A stretch of DNA of 64,000 bases, from assembly GCF_030294945.1 (NCBI RefSeq), contig NZ_AP018448.1, positions 1,054,001 to 1,118,000 of the forward strand, in the 5' to 3' direction. Made by a program: the position numbers and the translations under genes. This stretch comes from Streptomyces graminofaciens (GTDB taxonomy: Bacteria; Actinomycetota; Actinomycetes; Streptomycetales; Streptomycetaceae). Positions 4,423-16,198 of the stretch are shown piece after piece; positions within the stretch are counted from its first letter, which is position 1, and each line of letters begins with the position of its first letter. The notes beneath the pieces were generated by a model, which did no database searches, had not been told where the DNA came from, and saw nothing but the letters and a program-made list of their open reading frames with translations.

Positions 4423-5397
4423 TCAGGCGACGTCCAGCACGATCTTGCCGCGGACCCGTCCGGTCTGGCTGAGGCGGAGGGCGTCAGCGGCCTCGGCCAG
4501 GGGCAGCACGCGGTCGATGTGGACCGTGAGGTCGCCGGCGTCGGCGAGAGACGCGAGGGCGGCGAGGTCCTCGGGAACGGGCTGGGTCCACACCTGGTGT
4601 CCGCCGAGCCGGGTGACCTCGGGGTCGACGATCGAGGCGACCCGGGAGGGGTCCTTCAACAGCTTCTGGGAGACGGCGACGGCGTCACCGCCCACGCAGT
4701 CCACGGCCGCGTCGATGCCCTCGGGGGCCAGCTCCCGCACCCGCTCGACCAGACCGTCGCCGTAGACGACGGGCTCGGCGCCCAGCGAGCGCAGGAACTC
4801 GTGGTTGCGTTCGCTGGCTGTACCGATGACCCGAGCGCCCTGGGCGACGGCGATCTGCACGGCGAGGGAGCCGACACCGCCGGCCGCCGCGTGGACCAGG
4901 ACCGTCTCACCCGCCCCGGCGCCCACCCGGGTCAGTGACTGCAGCGCGGTGAGTCCTACGAGCGGGAGGCCGGCCGCCTGCTGCCAGGTCAGCGAGGCGG
5001 GCTTGCGCGCGATGGTGTGCACGGGCGCGGCGACGAACTCCGCGTAGGTGCCGTACTGCACCTGGTCCGTGCGGACGTAACCGAACACCTCGTCCCCGAC
5101 GGAGAAATGCGTGACGTCCGGGCCGACGGCCTCGACCACACCGGCGACGTCGAAGCCGGGCACGAGCGGCAGGCTGACCTTCAGGATCGAGTCGAGGTGC
5201 CCGGCCAGGACGTGCCAGTCGACCGGGTTGACCCCAGCGGCCTTCACCCGTACCAGCACCGAGCCGGGACCCGCTTCGGGCTTGTCGATCTCCGTCAGCT
5301 GCAGGGTCTCGGGGCCGCCGTACTGCTGGGCGACGACCGCTCGCATACGTCCCTCGCCCTGCGCACCGGGCAGACGGCTGTCGATGTGGGTCGTCAT
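4423..5397 (-). CDS. NADP-dependent oxidoreductase, quinone reductase / MDR type
   Basis: Medium-chain dehydrogenase/reductase of the zinc-free quinone oxidoreductase type, about 324 residues. GroES-like N-terminal domain (MRAVVAQQYGGPETLQLTEI), then the nucleotide-binding motif VLVHAAAGGVGSLAVQIAVA and the C-terminal SGRVRGKIVLDV-like ending (TGRVRGKIVLDVA). The ATG at 5397 is chosen because GAGGAG sits 6-8 bp upstream; an ATG further up at 5451 has no such site. It would reduce quinones or enones with NADPH. It diverges from a MerR regulator, and the promoter between them has MerR-type spacing, so it is probably that regulator's target. Confidence 0.9.
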   Translation of the reverse strand: MTTHIDSRLPGAQGEGRMRAVVAQQYGGPETLQLTEIDKPEAGPGSVLVRVKAAGVNPVDWHVLAGHLDSILKVSLPLVPGFDVAGVVEAVGPDVTHFSVGDEVFGYVRTDQVQYGTYAEFVAAPVHTIARKPASLTWQQAAGLPLVGLTALQSLTRVGAGAGETVLVHAAAGGVGSLAVQIAVAQGARVIGTASERNHEFLRSLGAEPVVYGDGLVERVRELAPEGIDAAVDCVGGDAVAVSQKLLKDPSRVASIVDPEVTRLGGHQVWTQPVPEDLAALASLADAGDLTVHIDRVLPLAEAADALRLSQTGRVRGKIVLDVA

Positions 5398-5457
5398 GTC
5401 AGAACTCCTCTTGATCCGTGCCTGGTCCGTGGCGCCCGGTCCGCCGGGCACGGCATT

Positions 5458-5942: not shown

Positions 5943-6755
5943 TCAGGCCCCCGCGCCGGGCCCTCCCAGTCGTTGCGGGGCCGCTTCCACCACCCGCTCC
6001 TCTATCCGGTGCACCGCGGCCCGCAGGTCGTCCAGATGCCGACGCGCCACTTCCTGTGCGGACATGACCGACTTGCGCCAGGTCACGTTGACGCACCCCA
6101 GCACCTCGCCGTGTACACGGATCGGGACGGCGATCGAGTTGCGGCCGTCGAAGTCGTACTCCGGCGCGCGCACGCTGTACCCGCGTGACCGGGTGGTCGC
6201 CAGCAGTTGACGCAGCCACCTGGGGTCGTGGGCGTACTCGTTGCCCGGGACGTCGTGGTCGCGCAGGCGCCGCAGGACCGCTTCCCGCTCACGCTCGGGG
6301 CAGAAGGCGACGTAGGCCCGGCCCGAGGCGCCGAGCAGCATGTGGGAGCGGAAGCCGACGGGGGCGACGGGGACGACCTCGTCGAAGTAGGCCTTCGGGC
6401 TGTTCGTGTCGATCGTCTCCATGTAGTCCAGCCGCGGCACGGTCAGCACGGAGGGCCACATCACGCGTTCGCACAGCTCTTCCAGGACCTGCGACGCCAA
6501 CTCGCCGAGCCACTCGGCGTCGTCGTACGGGGCGCGCTGCGGTCGGAGGCTCGCGATGAACGCCCCGTCGGCGAGCCGCTGCCACACCAGGCCCTGCTCG
6601 TTGCAGGTGTGCAGGATGCGGAGCAGCGTGGCCTTGGGGATGCCGGTCACCTGGTGCAGATCGTGCAGGCTCGCGGCGCGCATCTCCTGCAGGGTCCGCA
6701 GCACCCGCAGGCCGCGCTCCAGAGAGCTGATCGTCTTCACCTGATAGTTCCGCAC
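5943..6755 (-). CDS. IclR family transcriptional regulator
   Basis: IclR-type regulator of about 270 residues. N-terminal winged helix: SLERGLRVLRTLQEM, ASLHDLHQVTGIPKATLLRIL; C-terminal effector domain with GASGRAYVAFCPEREREAVL. The GTG at 6755 is chosen: the helix-turn-helix starts right after it and a GAGGGCGGG lies upstream. An in-frame ATG at 6887 would run across the divergent promoter and the next gene's start. It faces the acetoacetyl-CoA synthetase/carboxylase operon and a perfect dyad lies between them, so it is probably the pathway-specific regulator sensing a substrate or intermediate. Confidence 0.88.
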   Translation of the reverse strand: MRNYQVKTISSLERGLRVLRTLQEMRAASLHDLHQVTGIPKATLLRILHTCNEQGLVWQRLADGAFIASLRPQRAPYDDAEWLGELASQVLEELCERVMWPSVLTVPRLDYMETIDTNSPKAYFDEVVPVAPVGFRSHMLLGASGRAYVAFCPEREREAVLRRLRDHDVPGNEYAHDPRWLRQLLATTRSRGYSVRAPEYDFDGRNSIAVPIRVHGEVLGCVNVTWRKSVMSAQEVARRHLDDLRAAVHRIEERVVEAAPQRLGGPGAGA

Positions 6756-6790
6756 AGGACCCGCCCTCACCTGCGGAGATGCCGACCGGA

Positions 6791-6805
6791 TTTCACTGGG
6801 TGAAA
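6791..6805. promoter_or_regulatory. IclR-type operator TTTCAC-TGG-GTGAAA
   Basis: Perfect 6-bp inverted repeat TTTCAC/GTGAAA with a 3-bp centre, in the short gap between the IclR gene and the carboxylase operon. Dyads of this size are usual for IclR regulators. Its placement between the two starts suggests control in both directions. Confidence 0.6.
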
Positions 6806-6876
6806 AGTTAGCAGCCGATGGTTGCCCGGTCCATGGCCAGTCGTGGACCGTTCGTTCCGTGACGCGAGGAGGCGAC

Positions 6877-8994
6877 ATGGACGTCAAGGCGGCAGCGGGC
6901 TCATATGCCCCCGATCCGAAGGCCGGCGCGGCCGACGAGCCAGTGACGGTGGCCGAGGGCGAGCTGCTGTGGACACCCGGCCCGCGACGGGTCGCCGAGG
7001 CGAACCTGACGTCCTTCCTGGACTGGCTGGCCCGCGAGTGCGGGCGGCGCTTCGACGGTTACGACGAGCTGTGGCGCTGGTCCGTCACCGATCTGCCGGG
7101 TTTCTGGGGCGCGCTGTGGGACTACTTCGACATCCGGTCCGCGACCCCGTACTCCGAGGTGCTCGGCAGCCGTGACATGCCGGGCGCGCAATGGTTCCCC
7201 GGGGCGCGGCTGAACTACGCCGAGCATGTGCTGCGCCACGAACGCCCCGGCGCGGACGCCCTGCTGTTCTGCTCGGAAGGCGCCGCTCCGGCCGGGGTGC
7301 CGTGGGAGGACTTCGCGGGCCGGGTGCGCATCCTGGCGACGCGGCTGCGCGCACTCGGGGTGCGTCCGGGTGACCGGGTCTGCGGCTATCTGCCGAACGT
7401 GCCGCAGGCCGCGATCGCGATGCTCGCGACAACGGCCGTCGGCGCGGTGTGGGCCGGCGCCTCCCCCGACTTCGGGTCACGAGGTGTGGTGGACCGGTTC
7501 AGTCAGCTGGGGCCGAAGGTCCTGTTCTGCGTCGACGGCTACCGCTACGGCGGGAAGACCTTCGACCGCCGAGCGGAGGCGCGCCTCATCGCCGAGGCCC
7601 TGCCGGGTCTGGAACACGTCATCCACCTGCCCTCTCCCGTGCACGGCGAGACCCGGCCGGTCGTCGACGGCGGACACCCGTGGGCCGACCTGCTGTGGGA
7701 CGACGTCCTCGACCATCCGCCCGTGTCCGCCGAGGACTTCGCGTTCGAGCACGTTCCCTTCGACCACCCGCTGTGGGTGCTCTTCTCGTCCGGTACGACG
7801 GGACTGCCCAAGGCGATCGTGCACGGCCACGGCGGCATCCTGCTGGAGCAGCTGAAGCTGCAGACCTTCCACATGGACCTGCGCGAGGGCGACCGGCCGC
7901 TGTTCTTCACCACCACCGGCTGGATGATGTGGAACTTCCTGATCAGCTCCCTGCTGGTCGGTGCCTGTCCGGTGCTGTACGACGGGAACCCGGCCCACCC
8001 CGAGCCGGACGTGCTGTGGCGGATCGCGCAGGACACCCGGACCACCTTCTTCGGTGCCAGCCCGGCCTATGTCGACCTCATGAGCAAGGCCGGCATCGTG
8101 CCCGGCGAGCGGTACGACCTGTCGGCCCTGCGCACGGTCATGCCGGCCGGTTCACCGGTGTCACCGCAGTGCACCGCGTGGTTCCACCGCAACGTCAAGG
8201 CGGATCTGTGGGTGGCCACCGGCAGCGGCGGTACGGACTGCTGCACCGGCTTCGTCGGCGGGGTGCCCACACTGCCCGTGTACGCCGGTGAAATGCAGGC
8301 ACGGTCGCTGGGCGTCGCCGCGTACGCGTACGACGAGAGCGGCCGCGGGGTCGTGGACGAGGTCGGTGAGCTGGTGATCAGTGAGCCGCTGCCGTCCATG
8401 CCGGTGACCTTCTGGGGGCCGGACGGTGACGAGCGGTACCGCCGCTCGTACTTCGGGGACTTCCCCGGTGTCTGGCGGCACGGCGACTTCTTCAAGGTCA
8501 ACGCGCGCGGTGGCTGCTTCGTGCTGGGCCGCTCCGACGCGACGCTCAACCGGCAGGGGGTGCGCATCGGCACCGCGGAGATCTACCGCGTGGTGGAGGC
8601 ATTGGACGAGGTCGCCGCAGCCTTGATCGTCAGTCTCGACCTGCCGGACGAGAAGTTCTTCATGCCACTGTTCGTCGCCCTCAAGGAGGGCAGGACGCTC
8701 GACGCCGGGATCGAGGACACGATCCGCGCCCGGCTGCGCCGGGAGTACAGCCCCCGGCACGTACCGGACCGGATCATCCAGGTCCCGGCCGTCCCGACCA
8801 CCCTGACCGGCAAGAAGCTCGAAGTGCCGGCGCGCAGGATTCTGCTCGGCACCCCCGTCGAGGAGGCGGCCGACCGCAGCGCGGTGGCCGACCCCCGCGC
8901 ACTCGACGCCCTCGCCGAGTACACCCGTACCCAGCGCGACTATCCCCTGGCCGCCCCTGCCGTCGCCACTGCCGCTGCCGCCGGCGCCGTCTGA
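6877..8994 (+). CDS. Acetoacetyl-CoA synthetase (acetoacetate-CoA ligase)
   Basis: Adenylate-forming ligase, 705 residues, the length of acetoacetyl-CoA synthetases rather than acetyl-CoA synthetases. N-terminal FDGYDELWRWSVTDLPGFWG and GAQWFPGARLNYAEH are typical of that family; the phosphate-binding loop FSSGTTGLPK is at residues 303-312, followed by TTTGWMMWN and the C-terminal LPSMPVTFWGP, GRSDATLNRQGVRIGTAEIY and the catalytic Lys in LTGKKLEVP. It would turn acetoacetate or a similar keto acid, ATP and CoA into the CoA thioester. The start at 6877 follows GAGGAGG. It is the first gene of the operon; the carboxylase encoded downstream could supply its substrate. Confidence 0.93.
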   Translation: MDVKAAAGSYAPDPKAGAADEPVTVAEGELLWTPGPRRVAEANLTSFLDWLARECGRRFDGYDELWRWSVTDLPGFWGALWDYFDIRSATPYSEVLGSRDMPGAQWFPGARLNYAEHVLRHERPGADALLFCSEGAAPAGVPWEDFAGRVRILATRLRALGVRPGDRVCGYLPNVPQAAIAMLATTAVGAVWAGASPDFGSRGVVDRFSQLGPKVLFCVDGYRYGGKTFDRRAEARLIAEALPGLEHVIHLPSPVHGETRPVVDGGHPWADLLWDDVLDHPPVSAEDFAFEHVPFDHPLWVLFSSGTTGLPKAIVHGHGGILLEQLKLQTFHMDLREGDRPLFFTTTGWMMWNFLISSLLVGACPVLYDGNPAHPEPDVLWRIAQDTRTTFFGASPAYVDLMSKAGIVPGERYDLSALRTVMPAGSPVSPQCTAWFHRNVKADLWVATGSGGTDCCTGFVGGVPTLPVYAGEMQARSLGVAAYAYDESGRGVVDEVGELVISEPLPSMPVTFWGPDGDERYRRSYFGDFPGVWRHGDFFKVNARGGCFVLGRSDATLNRQGVRIGTAEIYRVVEALDEVAAALIVSLDLPDEKFFMPLFVALKEGRTLDAGIEDTIRARLRREYSPRHVPDRIIQVPAVPTTLTGKKLEVPARRILLGTPVEEAADRSAVADPRALDALAEYTRTQRDYPLAAPAVATAAAAGAV

Positions 8995-9054
8995 GCGGCT
9001 CCGTCCTCGCCCTCAGCTCCCTGTCCCCTTGAACCGCACCTTTTGGAGAGCACC

Positions 9055-10875
9055 GTGAACGATGCGAGACCCGCCTCCCGCTTCCCTCTTCCTTCAGAGC
9101 TCACCGATGTGGCGGGCGCCGAGGAGTGGGCGTCGATGTATCCCTATTACACCCGGTTCCAGCCCGAGGACGACCAGCGGTTCTGGTTCTACAACGCCAT
9201 GCACTTCCCCGAGCCGATGCCCGCGTTCGACGCCGTCACGGCGGAGGCGCCCTACACCGCCCTCGGCGCCAACACGGCACGCATGTTCGTCTTCCCCACG
9301 ACGCTCGGCATCGAGCACCGCATCGTCAACGGCCGGGTCTACATCACCGCCAACCCGGTCACCGACCCGGCGGAGATCCAGCGCAGGCTCGCGCAGTTCA
9401 GCGAGCGGGCGGGGCACTACTACGAGAACTGGGACGAGCTGTACCAGGGCTGGGTCACCCGTATCACCGGCCTGATCGACGAGGTGCAGCGGATCGAGGT
9501 GCCGCAGCTGTCGGAGTTCGAGGACCCGGACGTCGTCTTCCAGGCCAAGGGCGTGGCCCAGAACCACTACGTGCGCGAGAACTACCACCGGCTCATGGAT
9601 CTGTACTCCAAGATGTGGCACCACCACTCGGAGTTCCTGATGCTGGGCTACGGCGCCTACGTGGTGTTCTTCGAGTTCTGCAAGAAGTCGTTCCCGGAGA
9701 TCCCCGACCAGGACGTGGCCCGGATGGTCGCGGGGATCGACGTGATCCTCTACCGGCCCGACGACGAGCTGAAGAAGCTGGCGAAACTCGCTGTCGAATA
9801 CGGCGTCGACGATCTCTTCGTGGAGGGCTGCGAGCCGGACAAGGTGCTGGCCGCGCTCGCCGCCCGCGGGGACGGGGGACAGCGCTGGCTGAAGGCCATG
9901 GACGACGCGCGTGAGCCGTGGTTCAACATGTCGACCGGCGCCGGGTTCTACCACCACCACCGCAGCTGGAACGACGACCTCACGGTGCCGTTCGCGGCGC
10001 TGCCCGGCTATGTCGACCAGGCGCGGCGCGGCGAACTGCTCGACCGTCCCACCGAGCAGCTCACGGCGGAGCGCGAACGCATCGCCAGGGAGTACCGCTC
10101 CCTGCTGGCCGGCGAGGAGGAACAGGCCGCCTTCGACCAGATGCTCGAACTGGCCCGCGTGGTGTTCCCCTTCGTGGAGGACCACAACTTCTACTGCGAG
10201 CACTACTTCACCACGAAGTTCTTCGCGAAGGTGCGCGAGTTCGGTGAACTGCTGTGCGCACAAGGCGTGTTGGCCGACGCCGAAGACGTCTTCCAGCTGA
10301 ACCACACCGAGGTCGGCCAGGCCCTGACCGATGTGATGCTCGCCTGGGCGGCCGGTTCGAAGCCGGTGGGCTCGGCCCATGTGCGGGAGACAGTGGCCGA
10401 GCGCAGGCGGATGCTGGAGTCCCTCGCGGGCTGGTCCCCGCCGCCCGCGCTGGGCCCGGTCCCCGAGGCGCTCAACGACCCGGCGGTGCGCATGCTGTGG
10501 GGCATCACCGCGGAGACCATCCAGGCCTGGTCGACACCGGCCGAGGCGGGTGACGACGAGGTGCGCGGTTTCGCCGCCTCACCGGGCGTGGTCGAGGGCA
10601 CCGCCCGGGTGCTGATGAGCGCCAACGACATAGGCCAGGTACGGGAGGGCGAGGTGCTGGTCTGTCCGGTGACCGCGCCCAGCTGGGGGCCCGTCTTCGG
10701 CAAGATCGCGGCCGCCGTCTCGGACATCGGCGGCACCATGTCCCACGCGGCCATCGTGGCCCGCGAGTACGGACTGCCCGCCGTCGTCGGCACGGGCCAC
10801 GCCACCAAGCGGATCACCACGGGTCAACGACTGCGCGTGGACGGCGACCGCGGCATCGTCACCCTCCTCGACTGA
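9055..10875 (+). CDS. PEP-utilizing enzyme, phenylphosphate-synthase alpha-like (phosphohistidine domain)
   Basis: Protein of 606 residues with no ATP-grasp part of its own. The C-terminal 100 residues are the swivelling phosphohistidine domain of PEP synthase and PPDK: GFAASPGVVEGTARVL, then GGTMSHAAIVAREYGLPAVV with the phosphate-carrying His at about residue 564. The long N-terminal part (HYYENWDELYQGW, HSEFLMLGYGAYVVFFEF) replaces the substrate domain and has the same arrangement as the large subunit of phenylphosphate synthase (about 70 kDa). The next gene supplies the missing ATP domain. GTG at 9055 has GGAGAG upstream; an in-frame TTG at 9043 is less likely. It would pass phosphate from His to a small substrate, perhaps an enol or phenol; the substrate is not known. 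Confidence 0.8.
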   Translation: MNDARPASRFPLPSELTDVAGAEEWASMYPYYTRFQPEDDQRFWFYNAMHFPEPMPAFDAVTAEAPYTALGANTARMFVFPTTLGIEHRIVNGRVYITANPVTDPAEIQRRLAQFSERAGHYYENWDELYQGWVTRITGLIDEVQRIEVPQLSEFEDPDVVFQAKGVAQNHYVRENYHRLMDLYSKMWHHHSEFLMLGYGAYVVFFEFCKKSFPEIPDQDVARMVAGIDVILYRPDDELKKLAKLAVEYGVDDLFVEGCEPDKVLAALAARGDGGQRWLKAMDDAREPWFNMSTGAGFYHHHRSWNDDLTVPFAALPGYVDQARRGELLDRPTEQLTAERERIAREYRSLLAGEEEQAAFDQMLELARVVFPFVEDHNFYCEHYFTTKFFAKVREFGELLCAQGVLADAEDVFQLNHTEVGQALTDVMLAWAAGSKPVGSAHVRETVAERRRMLESLAGWSPPPALGPVPEALNDPAVRMLWGITAETIQAWSTPAEAGDDEVRGFAASPGVVEGTARVLMSANDIGQVREGEVLVCPVTAPSWGPVFGKIAAAVSDIGGTMSHAAIVAREYGLPAVVGTGHATKRITTGQRLRVDGDRGIVTLLD

Positions 10876-10903
10876 CCTCCTCGACCACGCAGGGAGCACC
10901 ACG

Positions 10904-11992
10904 ATGGACACGTCACCCCTCGTCCGCCGGTTCGGGGATCTACGGCTCACCGACCGGCCCACCGTCGGCGGCAAGGGCGCCAGCCTGGGCGAACTCACCT
11001 TCGCCGGCGCCCCCGTACCGCCCGGCTACGTCGTCACCACCACCGCCTTCGAGGCCTTCCTCGACGCCCTCGACCCGGACGGCGAGATCCGCGCCGGAGT
11101 CGAGGCTCTGGACGCCGAGAACACCGAGGCGATCGCCCGCGCGACCGCGCCGATCAAGGAGCGCATCGAAGCGGCCGAGCTGCCGGAGGAGGTAACGGCG
11201 GCGATCCGGGGCCACTACCGGGACCTGGACAGCGAGTCCGACACCCCCGGTGAGCCCGCCCCTGTCGCCGTACGCTCCAGCGCCACCAGCGAGGACGCGG
11301 AGGACGCCAGCTTCGCCGGACTCCAGGACACCTACCTGTGGGTGCGCGGCGAGGACTCCCTCGTCGAGCACGTCCGGCGGTGCTGGGCCAGCCTCTACAG
11401 CGTGGAGTCGGTGAGCTACCGGCGGCGGCTGGGCCTGCCGGAGCAGGATCTCGCGATGGCCGTCGTCGTCCAGCGCATGATCGACCCGCGCTGCGCCGGT
11501 GTCATGTTCACCCGTAGCCCGCTCACCGGGGACCGTTCCGTCGTCGCTCTCGAAGGAACCTGGGGCCTGGGGTCGGCACTCGTCGGTGGCGACGTGACAC
11601 CCGACAAGTACGTCGTCGGCAAGGTCACTGGGGACATTTGCTCCCGCACGGTCTCGACGAAGCTGCGACAGCACCGGATGGACCCGAGCGGCTGCGGGGT
11701 GCTGGAGGAGGACGTACCGGAGTACCTGCGGGACGAGCCCTGTCTGTCCGACGCGGAGATCCAGGAACTGGTGCGGATCGGCCGACAGGTCGAGTCCCAC
11801 TACGGGACCCCGCAGGACATCGAGTGGGCGATCTCCCGCAACCTCGTGCCCGGCCAGAACATCTTCCTGCTCCAGAGCCGCCCCGAGACGGTGTGGGCGA
11901 ATCGGGCGAAGACGCCGACGGCCGCACCCAAGGCCAGGGCGTTCGACCATGTGCTGTCCCTGCTCGGCGGTACCGGCGGAGGCACGCCGTGA
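10904..11992 (+). CDS. PEP/pyruvate-binding ATP-grasp subunit, phenylphosphate-synthase beta-like
   Basis: 362 residues matching only the N-terminal ATP-grasp half of PEP synthase: GGKGASLGELTFAGAPVPPG at residue 25, VRSSATSEDAEDASFAGLQ near 123, the hinge VQRMIDPRCAGVMFTRSP and the final IEWAI...LLQSRPET. It lacks the His domain, which is in the gene 28 bp upstream. The pair (606 + 362 residues) matches the two large subunits of phenylphosphate synthase in size and order. It would bind ATP and phosphorylate the partner's His, giving AMP and Pi. It overlaps the biotin-carrier gene by GTGA, tying the kinase pair to the carboxylase. Confidence 0.85.
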   Translation: MDTSPLVRRFGDLRLTDRPTVGGKGASLGELTFAGAPVPPGYVVTTTAFEAFLDALDPDGEIRAGVEALDAENTEAIARATAPIKERIEAAELPEEVTAAIRGHYRDLDSESDTPGEPAPVAVRSSATSEDAEDASFAGLQDTYLWVRGEDSLVEHVRRCWASLYSVESVSYRRRLGLPEQDLAMAVVVQRMIDPRCAGVMFTRSPLTGDRSVVALEGTWGLGSALVGGDVTPDKYVVGKVTGDICSRTVSTKLRQHRMDPSGCGVLEEDVPEYLRDEPCLSDAEIQELVRIGRQVESHYGTPQDIEWAISRNLVPGQNIFLLQSRPETVWANRAKTPTAAPKARAFDHVLSLLGGTGGGTP

Positions 11993-12491
11993 GCCTGACC
12001 GGCGAAGACGTCCAGGACATCCTGCGGATCATCGACGACATGGACGTCGATCGCCTCCATCTGCGCACCGGCCGGTTCGAACTGTCGCTGCGCCGGAGCG
12101 ACGACGGCGAGTGGACACAGTCCGCACGCACCTCCGCCGAGCCGGTGCTGATGGACCGTGCGCCGGAGGAGCGGCCGGCTGACGGGGAGAGGGACGGGAC
12201 CGCACCGGACAAGCAGGCGGTGTCCGGCCGTGAGGGCCTGGCCGAGGTACGTACGCCGTTGCCGGGAGCCTTCTACCGGGCGCCGAAGCCCGGCGCGCCG
12301 CCCTTCGTGGAGATCGGGGACGAGGTCACCGAGACCACCGTGGTCGGGATCGTCGAGACGATGAAGTTGATGAATTCCGTGTACGCGGGGGCGACCGGCA
12401 CCGTGGCGGACATCGGTCTGGCCGACGGCGACTTCGTCGAGCAGGGGGCCGTGTTGATGTACATCGACACGGCGGCCGGCGGGGCGGCACC

Positions 12492-12495
<4 letters not shown>
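11989..12495 (+). CDS. Biotin carboxyl carrier protein
   Basis: 168-residue carrier protein. The N-terminus (EDVQDILRIIDDMDVDRLHL) resembles AccB, a Ser/Glu/Asp/Pro-rich linker follows, and the C-terminal biotinyl domain ends the protein: PGAFYRAPKPG, then VGIVETMKLMNSVYAG with the biotinylated Lys at residue 126 (ETMKLM instead of EAMKM, as in many AccB proteins). GTG at 11989 is read from a GTGA overlap with the gene before, and GGAGG precedes it. It overlaps biotin carboxylase by 4 bp. It would carry CO2 from the carboxylase to the carboxyltransferase. Confidence 0.92.
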
Positions 12496-13875
<1,380 letters not shown>

Positions 13876-13883
<8 letters not shown>

Positions 13884-15351
13884 CATCCAGCTCGTCGACG
13901 TGTCATTGCGCGACGGCAACCAGAGCCTGTGGAGCGCCACCGGACTGGACACGGGCAAGATCCTCCAGATCGCCCCGATCCTGGACCGCGTGGGCTTCCG
14001 GGCCCTCGACTACACCTCCAGCACCCACATGGGCATGGCGGTACGGACCCACCGCGAGGACCCCTGGGAACGCATCCGGCTCACCCACCGGGCCATGCCC
14101 AACACCCCGCTGCAGTTCATCGGCACCGGGCTGCGCTTCATCTCCTGGGAGGTCGCCCACCCGGAGTTCATGCAGCTCGTCTACGACCGGCTGGTGGCCA
14201 ACGGCGTCACCCGGTATGTCGTGCTCGACCCCATGCACGACATGGACGCCGTACGCGAGTCCGCGCGGATGATCCGCCGGGCCGGCGCCGGCGAGATCGT
14301 CGGAGCGCTCACCTACACCGTCAGCGACGTGCACGACGACGCCCACTACGGCTCCCTCGCCGCCCAGATGGCGGCCTGCCCGGACATCGACCGCGTCTAC
14401 ATCAAGGACCCCGGCGGACTGCTGACCACGGAGCGTGCCACCACGCTGATCCGGGCCGTCATCCGCCACCTCGGCGGCAAGCCGCTGGAACTGCACTCCC
14501 ACTGCACCATCGGGCTGCCGGGCCTGACCTACCTCAAGGCCGCCGACCTGGGGGTGCAGGCGCTGCAAGTGGCCTGCGGGGCTCTGGCGGGCGGCACATC
14601 CCTGCCCAACGCCCAGCAGGTGGTGGCCAATCTGCGGGAGTTCGGCCACACCGTGGACATCGACGACCGGCTGCTCGGCGTGGTGTCGGACTACTTCCAC
14701 CACATGGCCGGGGCCGAGGGTCTGCCCGCCGGCGGCCCCCGGGACTTCGACGCCGCGTTCATGCGCCACCAGGTGGCCGGCGGTGTGATGACCACGCTGC
14801 GCCGCCAGCTCGACGAACTGGGCTTCAGCGACCGCTTCGACGCGGTCATCGAGGAGGTGACCCGGGTCCGCGCCGAACTGGGCCACCCCATCATGGTCAC
14901 CCCCTTCCCACAGATGGTCTGCACCCAGGCGCTGTACAACGTGGTCGGCGCCGAGCGCTACGCGAACGTCTCCGACCCGGTGATCCGGTATGTGCAGGGC
15001 AACTTCGGCAGGCCGACCGGCCCCGTGGACCCGGACATCGCCGACCGCATCCTCGACCGGCCGCGAGCCAAGGAACTCGCGGACGAACCGCCCCCGCCGA
15101 CCGTCGCCGAACTGCGCGCGCGCTTCTCTCGTGGCATCAGCGACGAAGAGCTGCTCCTGCGGGCCACCATGCCCGCCGAGCAGGTGGACGCCATGGTGGC
15201 GGCCGGCCCGGCCCGGCAGCACTACAACCCCCGGGTGAAGCCGGTACTGAACCTGCTGCACGGCCTGCGGACCCGCCCGGCGACACCCGAACTGATCCTG
15301 GAACGGCCCGACTTCCGACTGGAGCTGCACCGTGACCGCCGACCCGACTGA
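13876..15351 (+). CDS. Biotin-dependent carboxyltransferase, pyruvate-carboxylase / 5S type
   Basis: 491 residues of the HMG-lyase-like carboxyltransferase fold of pyruvate carboxylase, transcarboxylase 5S and oxaloacetate decarboxylase. Visible: the metal Asp in VSLRDGNQSLW, the Lys of IKDPGG at about 177 (the carbamylated position in the family), and the metal HxH at 207-209. Odd points: LRDGNQ for LRDAHQ, KDPGG for KDMAG, and HSHCTIG for H-T-H-D-T, so the acceptor pocket probably differs from that for pyruvate. The biotin domain is on a separate protein. The acceptor is not known; the kinase pair upstream and CoA ligase suggest an activated ketone or enol phosphate. Confidence 0.85.
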
Positions 15352-16198
15352 CGAGGCCGCCGCCCTGGTGACCGACCGCCTGCGCGCCATCGGCGGCATC
15401 GTCTTCGACCTGGACGGCACCCTCGTGCTGGGCGACCGACGCAACCACGGGCTCACACCCCTCCCCGGAGCCCTGGAACTCACCGCCGCGCTCACCGCAC
15501 GCGGCCTGCCCTGGCTCACTTTCACCAACGGCACCACCCGTACGCCCGAGGAGTACGCGCGGACCCTGCGCCGGATCGGCTTCGACCTGCCCGACGAGGC
15601 CGTGCTCACCCCCGCCACCAGCGCCGTCGACCACTTCCTGGCCATGGGGCACCGCAGCGTGCTGGTGCTCGGCGGCGACGGGGTGAAGGAACCGCTGCGC
15701 CGGGCCGGCATCGAGGTCATCGAGCCCAAGGGGAAGCCCGAGGCAGACGCCGTACTGGCCGGCTGGTACCGCGAGTTCACCATGGACGACCTGGAGGCGG
15801 CCTGCCATGCCGTCCTCGGCGGCGCCGCCCTGTACAGCTGCTCCCAGTCGGTGTTCTTCGCCACGGCCGAGGGCAGGGCCCTGGGCACGTCCCGGGTCAT
15901 CTGCGCCATGATCAGCAGTGTCACGGGGGTCACCGAACAGATCGTGGGCAAACCCTCCCTGATCGGCCTGCGATGCGCCGCACAGCGGCTGGATGTCGCC
16001 CCGCAGGAACTCGCCGTCGTCGGAGACGACCCGGAACTGGAGATGGCGATGGCCCGCGACGCCGGCGCCCTCGCCATCGCGGTGGGCACCGGCATCCATC
16101 CGGCGGACCGTTACACCGGACTCCCGCCGAAGCACAGTCCGCACCTCACCGTCGGCGGTGTCGGCGAACTCCTCGCGCTCCTGTCCACGGCAGGCTGA
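15332..16198 (+). CDS. HAD-superfamily hydrolase, NagD-like
   Basis: 288-residue HAD phosphatase with a NagD-type cap: motif I VFDLDGTLVLGD near residue 27, motif II FTNGTTRTPEEYARTL, motif III VGKPSLIG and motif IV VVGDDPELEMAMARDAGALAIAV. GTG start at 15332, inside the end of the carboxyltransferase gene (20-bp overlap) with GGAG before it. As last gene of the carboxylase operon it could hydrolyse a phosphorylated intermediate or a wrongly phosphorylated side product of the kinase pair; this role is an inference. Confidence 0.9.
   Translation: MTADPTDEAAALVTDRLRAIGGIVFDLDGTLVLGDRRNHGLTPLPGALELTAALTARGLPWLTFTNGTTRTPEEYARTLRRIGFDLPDEAVLTPATSAVDHFLAMGHRSVLVLGGDGVKEPLRRAGIEVIEPKGKPEADAVLAGWYREFTMDDLEAACHAVLGGAALYSCSQSVFFATAEGRALGTSRVICAMISSVTGVTEQIVGKPSLIGLRCAAQRLDVAPQELAVVGDDPELEMAMARDAGALAIAVGTGIHPADRYTGLPPKHSPHLTVGGVGELLALLSTAG

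Follow-up and report, generated by a model that had tools for sequence, protein, structure and literature searches.

An operon of Streptomyces graminofaciens that probably encodes an Hpe-type pathway for 4-hydroxyphenyl methyl ketones

Results

A seven-gene operon joins a two-part kinase to a biotin-dependent carboxylase

The stretch of Streptomyces graminofaciens DNA analysed here (the window: 64,000 nucleotides, positions 1,054,001 to 1,118,000 of the single 11.6 Mb contig NZ_AP018448.1; coordinates below are window positions unless a contig or locus is named) carries at 6877–16198 an operon whose products probably form a pathway of the Hpe type, by which phenolic methyl ketones are phosphorylated, carboxylated, dephosphorylated and activated with coenzyme A. 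Inspection of open reading frames (ORFs) and Pfam matches confirmed the layout given in an initial annotation, with seven genes on the + strand in the order ligase, His-domain kinase subunit, ATP-grasp kinase subunit, biotin carrier, biotin carboxylase, carboxyltransferase and HAD phosphatase; adjacent genes overlap at four of the six junctions (by 4, 4, 8 and 20 bp), and 60 and 28 bp separate them at the remaining two. Together with a divergent regulator gene, they are as follows:

5943–6887, − strand: IclR-family regulator, divergent from the operon (Pfam HTH_IclR and IclR_C; longest ORF)
6877–8994, + strand: AMP-forming 3-oxoacid CoA ligase of the acetoacetyl-CoA-synthetase type, HpeE-like (705 residues from the ATG at 6877; TIGR01217)
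9055–10875, + strand: HpeH-like dikinase subunit, with a substrate-binding region and a C-terminal swivelling phosphohistidine domain (606 residues; C-terminal PF00391; NCBIfam PRK08296)
10904–11992, + strand: HpeI-like ATP-grasp dikinase subunit (362 residues; PF01326)
11989–12495, + strand: biotin carboxyl carrier protein, HpeC-like (168 residues; PF00364; BCCP-type family matches)
12492–13883, + strand: biotin carboxylase subunit (463 residues; PF00289, PF02786 and PF02785; accC-type families)
13876–15351, + strand: carboxyltransferase with a pyruvate carboxylase/OadA fold (491 residues; PF02436 and PF00682)
15332–16198, + strand: HAD-IIA (NagD-like) phosphatase, HpeD-like (288 residues; PF13344/PF13242)

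Every operon protein has at least one Pfam match well above cut-off; least secure is the HMGL-like part of the carboxyltransferase, at 32.7 bits for a cut-off of 29, in a protein whose PYC_OADA domain is clear (93.1 against 27 bits). In the biotin carrier, Lys126 of the ETMKLM motif is presumably the site of biotin attachment. The true start of the IclR-family regulator probably lies later than that of the longest ORF, because its nearest relatives match only 85% of it; a homologue occupies the same divergent position in many relatives of the operon, not in all.

Gene content parallels the Hpe pathway

Gene for gene, the operon corresponds to hpeHICBAD plus hpeE of the Hpe pathway, published in 2022 from Rhodococcus rhodochrous GD02, where hpeHICBADEF encode a two-part kinase, a three-part biotin carboxylase, a HAD phosphatase, a CoA ligase and a hydrolase (PMC9618137; here and below, published systems are given as described in the papers cited). 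The three-part biotin carboxylase stands beside the kinase and the HAD phosphatase in a single operon with short overlaps, whereas the ligase gene comes first rather than seventh and the operon is without hpeF.

HpeHI phosphorylates acetovanillone and 4-hydroxyacetophenone in vitro on the phenolic hydroxyl group, acetone playing no part in the work as described; HpeCBA carboxylates the phosphorylated ketones only, with one ATP converted to ADP each, and HpeD dephosphorylates the HpeCBA product, the expression of HpeCBA in E. coli having failed (PMC9618137). HpeHI is a dikinase that forms mainly AMP and has an essential His in an S/TxxGGxxxH motif (PMC12167813). The first of these papers tabulates hpeB as the carboxyltransferase and hpeA as the biotin carboxylase, with 57.4 kDa for HpeA and 49.3 kDa for HpeB (PMC9618137), sizes that would suit the two names the other way round.

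Rhodococcus JS3073 and Rhizobium leguminosarum BT01 likewise possess every component (kinase pair, carrier, carboxylase, carboxyltransferase, phosphatase, ligase and hydrolase), and the order carrier, biotin carboxylase, carboxyltransferase is shared with the JS3073 plasmid cluster. Two further systems are likened to the operon by description alone. The Acv pathway of Sphingobium sp. SYK-6, acvABCDEF, is reported to be homologous and syntenous to hpeHICBAD (cited in PMC9618137) and has its last two steps encoded elsewhere (PMC13101465), as the window's hydrolase is; it differs in being reported without an HpeE homologue, VceA/VceB being used instead. XccBCA of Aromatoleum aromaticum EbN1 is a three-part biotin carboxylase linked to the breakdown of 4-hydroxyacetophenone and reported to cluster with hpeHI homologues (PMC9618137), and differs in its anaerobic setting. 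With the same set present in the Hpe (PMC9618137) and Acv pathways, the novelty that the initial annotation attached to this combination finds no support.

Two other types of carboxylation system stand further away. The phenylphosphate synthase system on an Azoarcus sp. KH32C plasmid shares the two-part kinase, but has UbiD-type carboxylase genes and a CBS-domain protein that are absent from the window, where a biotin carboxylase is found instead. Acetone and acetophenone carboxylases of the AcxABC/Apc type are biotin-free, ATP-dependent enzymes with hydantoinase-related subunits; the operon encodes no such domain and has a biotin carrier.

The kinase resembles phenolic dikinases and forms its own clade

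The His-domain subunit carries the motif SDIGGTMSH, with His564 as the predicted catalytic residue and a Met two residues before it, which matches the description of phenolic dikinases as having S/TxxGGxxxH with Met two before the His (PMC12167813); S/TxxGGxxxH is present in 43 of 45 near-full-length His-domain sequences, those of phenylphosphate synthase (Pps) and Cre-like enzymes included. The best solved-structure match of the ATP-grasp subunit is 9GOJ (E value 2.3e-82), which is deposited HpeI (PMC12167813); the predicted structure of the HpeH-like subunit, with a mean predicted local distance difference test score of 48.9, is too poor for use. The His-domain and ATP-grasp subunits are, respectively, 48% and 44% identical to those of JS3073, 46% and 45% to those of Azoarcus KH32C phenylphosphate synthase, and 43% and 40% to a pair of R. 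ruber called cre-like from its gene neighbours. The initial annotation is supported in reading the kinase as a split, phenylphosphate-synthase-like dikinase that is coupled with biotin carboxylase, phosphatase and 3-oxoacid CoA ligase.

At the level of family models there is no indication that the pair would make phosphoenolpyruvate (PEP): the PEP synthase model TIGR01418 gives 100 and 324 bits for the two proteins against a cut-off of 740, and in the solved-structure search the similarity to PEP synthase is limited to the ATP-grasp and swivel parts. A quickly built tree of 34 kinases places that of the window in a clade of 22–23 with relatives from several phyla. Because this clade is its own, the kinase by itself is no proof of an Hpe substrate; the argument for Hpe function is carried by the linked carboxylase, phosphatase, ligase and neighbours, not by the kinase alone.

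The same genome has a further HpeHI-like pair (C1:6570816-6572630, − strand; locus L085), each subunit 43% identical to its counterpart, which was rejected as part of the system; no other operon gene was matched in the surrounding 18 kb.

Carboxyltransferase and ligase point away from their family names

Among 86 carboxyltransferase sequences, R12, D13, Q16, H207 and H209 are kept in all and K177 in 85; these residues presumably belong to the metal site. In pyruvate-type enzymes the Arg of an LLRGQN stretch presumably binds the substrate carboxylate. This Arg is present in four aligned solved chains of the pyruvate and oxaloacetate type, and the window's carboxyltransferase has Thr84 in its place; over the 86 sequences the position is Thr in 81, Ser in three, Val in one and Arg in one, the outlier L093. 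A carboxyltransferase without the pyruvate-type Arg probably has a substrate that is not pyruvate-like, and nothing further follows from it. Scores also stay below the cut-offs of the pyruvate- and oxaloacetate-type models (oadA, 265 of 757 bits; PRK09282, 288 of 402), so that no evidence emerged for use of free pyruvate, which the initial annotation had named as a point to check.

The operon ligase passes the acetoacetate--CoA ligase model TIGR01217 with 802 bits (cut-off 521), and ligases of related clusters pass it too (JS3073, 766; R. leguminosarum, 721; Pseudomonas putida YC-AE1, 806 bits), which makes the family name uninformative on substrate. It is 42% identical to the JS3073 ligase and 65% to that of P. 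putida YC-AE1. Two more TIGR01217 ligases are encoded in the same genome (1104 and 833 bits).

A candidate second carboxylase copy in the same genome, at C1:278787, was rejected as functional and proved to be a decayed remnant: at C1:278787-279671 (L004 10781-12503), with 87% identity in DNA, only the part of the carboxyltransferase from residue 195 onwards is left, along with a phosphatase whose frame is broken. About 4 kb away lies a reading frame that, judged by eye, is transposase-like.

The neighbourhood is conserved around related carboxyltransferases

A carboxyltransferase family scan over one genome per species returned at least 573 relatives among at least 591 matched stretches, of which the best 80 were kept; these loci, ten further stretches (L086-L095) and the window made up the 91 sequences compared by tblastn. 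Matches to both carrier and carboxyltransferase were obtained in 80 of the 91, and five with less than 1.5 kb before the carrier were dropped, leaving 75 readable loci, in which near-identical ones were counted singly (L072, L073, L074 and L088; L016 and L087). Directly before the carrier lies the ATP-grasp subunit in 46, the window being one of them, a Tm-1-like (UPF0261) protein in 26, and neither in three (L024, the distant outlier L093 and L046); both never occur together, and in L046 tblastn matched His-domain and ATP-grasp genes slightly further upstream. The conserved neighbourhood expected in the initial annotation is therefore present, the two-part kinase preceding the carrier in 46/75 loci. 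As the same arrangement recurs in dozens of other genomes, it is not due to chance.

The other genes follow to different extents, in counts that are lower bounds on presence because the contigs break off at varying distances: the His-domain subunit was matched in 44 of the 46 two-part-kinase loci (no match in L008 and L037), a HAD phosphatase homologue in 42/46 and in all 26 Tm-1-type loci, and a ligase more than 40% identical in 27/46 and 3/26, respectively. At L008, from Streptomyces caniscabiei, the IclR gene is followed directly by the ATP-grasp gene with no ligase or His-domain match, the front of the operon having seemingly been lost.

A kinase-type gene thus stands directly before the carrier in 72 of the 75 loci. 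A 2026 paper gives 52 of 836 cases in which kinase and carboxylase genes are clustered (PMC13101465), a figure not directly comparable with ours because our loci were picked by carboxyltransferase similarity to the window and the counting rules differ. For carboxyltransferases related to that of the window, a carboxylase with a kinase gene at its side is the norm.

Across 296 genomes of the phylum, searched at an E value of 1e-80, the carboxyltransferase and the His-domain protein were each matched in 18. Seven genomes, that of the window included, have a carboxyltransferase of at least 580 bits, and in all seven the His-domain match is no more than about 6 kb away on the same contig; the remaining eleven score at most 364 bits, have no His-domain match and probably encode ordinary enzymes of the pyruvate carboxylase type. 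The His-domain protein is matched in eleven more genomes that give no carboxyltransferase match at that limit, and the kinase therefore also serves elsewhere.

Three other arrangements were seen during the survey. Genome G541 has equal-scoring carboxyltransferases at C1:316151 (+) and C1:11223210 (−), near both ends of an 11.5 Mb contig, a placement that would fit terminal inverted repeats. Locus L075 is from a metagenome-assembled genome (MAG) labelled Klebsiella pneumoniae whose carboxyltransferase groups with those of other gammaproteobacterial MAGs, so that its label or binning is doubtful. On a Thermomicrobium roseum plasmid (L091, 9986-12917), an HpeHI-like pair adjoins xanthine-dehydrogenase-family genes and an oppositely oriented biotin carboxylase, possibly a further use of the kinase family.

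Two kinase-type proteins trade places beside one carboxylase

The Tm-1-like clusters, from sphingomonads, Pseudomonas and Geobacter, have the same carrier, carboxylase, carboxyltransferase and phosphatase, with carboxyltransferases 58–70% identical to that of the window over the 26 loci; they differ in that a single protein of another family replaces the two-part kinase. On a carboxyltransferase tree of 74 rows (12 of the 86 sequences were left out, their upstream type being truncated, unread or, in L046, neither of the two), change between two-part kinase and Tm-1-like protein takes five steps, at least three of them forced by well-supported branches.

Both Tm-1-like proteins examined belong to UPF0261, and one matches the solved UPF0261 protein 9MPY and plant Tm-1. 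A closely similar pathway in Novosphingobium aromaticivorans begins with MarK, described as a single-component kinase (PMC13101465). From this description and the solved UPF0261 protein, the Tm-1-like protein is probably a MarK-type kinase by analogy; the listed literature on Tm-1-like and UPF0261 proteins makes no link to ketones. The exchange of kinases is thus probably known in principle, and the survey adds that it has happened repeatedly inside otherwise constant clusters, where kinase-type proteins from two families alternate next to a single kind of carboxylase.

Two plasmids illustrate the surroundings of such clusters. That of P. putida YC-AE1, a strain whose breakdown of bisphenol A has p-hydroxyacetophenone as one of the intermediates detected (PMC6958771), encodes ligase, Tm-1-like protein, carrier, carboxylase, carboxyltransferase and phosphatase with an adjoining hydrolase, and pobA about 11 kb further; identity to the window is 65–69% for ligase, biotin carboxylase and carboxyltransferase, 55% for the phosphatase and 47% for the carrier. 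On pBAR1 of Sphingomonas bisphenolicum, the cluster comes immediately after genes for a thioesterase and a beta-keto acid cleavage enzyme, and a carotenoid-oxygenase-family gene and pobA lie within 10 kb.

In five loci (L070, L072, L073, L074 and L088), the Tm-1-type cluster adjoins genes for a beta-keto acid cleavage enzyme and a thioesterase, which suggests that the pathway ends differently there, in cleavage with acetyl-CoA instead of ligase and hydrolase. The last four of these have identical carboxyltransferases in differently named sphingomonad records, one on plasmid pBAR1, which points to recent transfer. Geobacter relatives and Telmatospirillum (L010, L011, L012 and L054) have a second Tm-1-like protein after the carboxyltransferase, 30–32% identical to that of P. 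putida, and three Geobacter-type loci among these have a metallo-beta-lactamase-fold protein upstream.

Discussion

With a probability of roughly 0.8, by analogy with the published system, the operon encodes an Hpe-type pathway for 4-hydroxyphenyl methyl ketones, such as 4-hydroxyacetophenone, acetovanillone or a close analogue. The HpeHI-like pair would phosphorylate the phenolic hydroxyl group with ATP through a phosphohistidine on the swivelling domain, releasing AMP and phosphate; the three-part biotin enzyme would then carboxylate the acetyl methyl group with bicarbonate, ATP yielding ADP and phosphate, and the HAD phosphatase would remove the phosphate to leave a 3-aryl-3-oxopropionate, which the ligase would convert to its CoA ester. 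Release of acetyl-CoA and a 4-hydroxybenzoate would fall to a hydrolase of the CouO/HpeF type from another part of the genome, and the 4-hydroxybenzoate would be taken on by PobA and protocatechuate dioxygenase. The genome has candidates for these functions outside the window, namely a hydrolase (C1:3190648) 67% identical to the R. leguminosarum protein and adjoining an AMP ligase, PobA-type matches of 51%, 49% and 35%, and a pcaH match above cut-off. Also in favour of a phenolic ketone, some relatives have further parts of an aromatic route near the cluster: an HpeF-type hydrolase in JS3073, R. leguminosarum BT01 and P. putida YC-AE1, and pobA on the YC-AE1 and pBAR1 plasmids. For this Streptomyces we infer every step, the exact ketone included; the order of phosphorylation, carboxylation, dephosphorylation and activation is the one that the initial annotation had proposed, and it is supported.

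Several observations weigh against this reading. The window's proteins are only 38–51% identical to the JS3073 set (phosphatase 38%, carboxyltransferase 45%, biotin carboxylase 51%, carrier 50% over the matched part), in a comparison where JS3073 stands in, by gene order, for GD02, SYK-6 and EbN1, 9GOJ being the sole direct one. The window's kinase clade is separate from the eight JS3073 (Hpe)-type kinases, and the tree, whose program flags long branches, leaves unsettled whether the Hpe or the Pps type is nearer. Neither an HpeF-type hydrolase nor pobA was matched by tblastn within the 64 kb window, and no aromatic-pathway gene was recognised among the window neighbours run through Pfam, one of which is a zinc-type alcohol dehydrogenase family protein encoded at 4423–5451 on the strand opposite to the operon; across the survey an HpeF-type hydrolase lies near the cluster in a minority of loci (8/46 with the two-part kinase, 2/26 of the Tm-1 type). 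The carboxyltransferase, finally, is matched in just 4 of 295 genomes of the genus, this one included (E value 1e-120), and such rare and patchy occurrence within Streptomyces suggests horizontal gain or repeated loss.

The same chemistry may instead be directed at another phenolic ketone, for example acetosyringone, a longer-chain hydroxyphenyl ketone or a specialised plant ketone, a variant we regard as unlikely yet deserving of weight, as both the kinase clade and the carboxyltransferase clade are separate. The nearest named relatives among the matches listed include S. ipomoeae, S. stelliscabiei and S. caniscabiei, which are plant pathogens. Hpe, Acv and MarK kinases are described as differing in their preference for acetovanillone or acetosyringone (PMC13101465); on the other hand, HpeHI itself accepts a fairly wide range of phenolic ketones and aldehydes (PMC12167813), and no feature was found that points to one particular alternative.

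Far less probable is the scheme favoured in the initial annotation, in which acetone or another aliphatic ketone would be phosphorylated as its enol, carboxylated by the biotin enzyme and dephosphorylated to acetoacetate, to end as acetoacetyl-CoA. Family models do name the first gene acetoacetate--CoA ligase, a carboxyltransferase without the pyruvate-type Arg would suit any ketone, and the alcohol dehydrogenase at 4423–5451 would fit a route from 2-propanol, and many others equally; but the ligases of JS3073 and of R. leguminosarum, both of which have the whole hpe gene set, pass the same cut-off, and another ligase of the genome scores much higher on that model (1104 bits). The published parallel puts the phosphate on a phenolic hydroxyl group (PMC9618137), which leaves acetone unsupported as lead substrate, no systematic search for acetone or 2-propanol genes having been made; the characterised members of the two-part-kinase group named in the papers cited act on phenols (PMC12167813), the annotated relatives L087 and L088 carry pobA on the same stretch, and the titles and abstract openings of the acetone-carboxylase literature listed, which deals with ATP-dependent acetone and acetophenone carboxylases, describe no biotin-dependent acetone route. 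A central-metabolism set, in which a split PEP synthase would accompany a pyruvate carboxylase or oxaloacetate decarboxylase, is the least credible reading, suggested by family names taken at face value (PEP synthase, pyruvate carboxylase subunit B, OadA) and opposed by TIGR01418, oadA and PRK09282 scores that are all under cut-off, by a PEP synthase likeness confined to the ATP-grasp and swivel parts of the kinase, and by Thr or Ser at the LLRGQN Arg position in 84 of 86 related sequences.

In summary, despite modest identities and a kinase clade of its own, the operon is most likely another copy, in a separate clade, of a combination for which the Hpe pathway is the precedent, and not a new acetone pathway. 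It would place an Hpe-type route in Streptomyces, and it indicates that genes labelled 'PEP-utilizing enzyme', 'oxaloacetate decarboxylase', 'acetoacetate--CoA ligase' and 'UPF0261' in this setting most likely serve the breakdown of phenolic ketones, an insight into annotation of use to work on lignin and bisphenol A.

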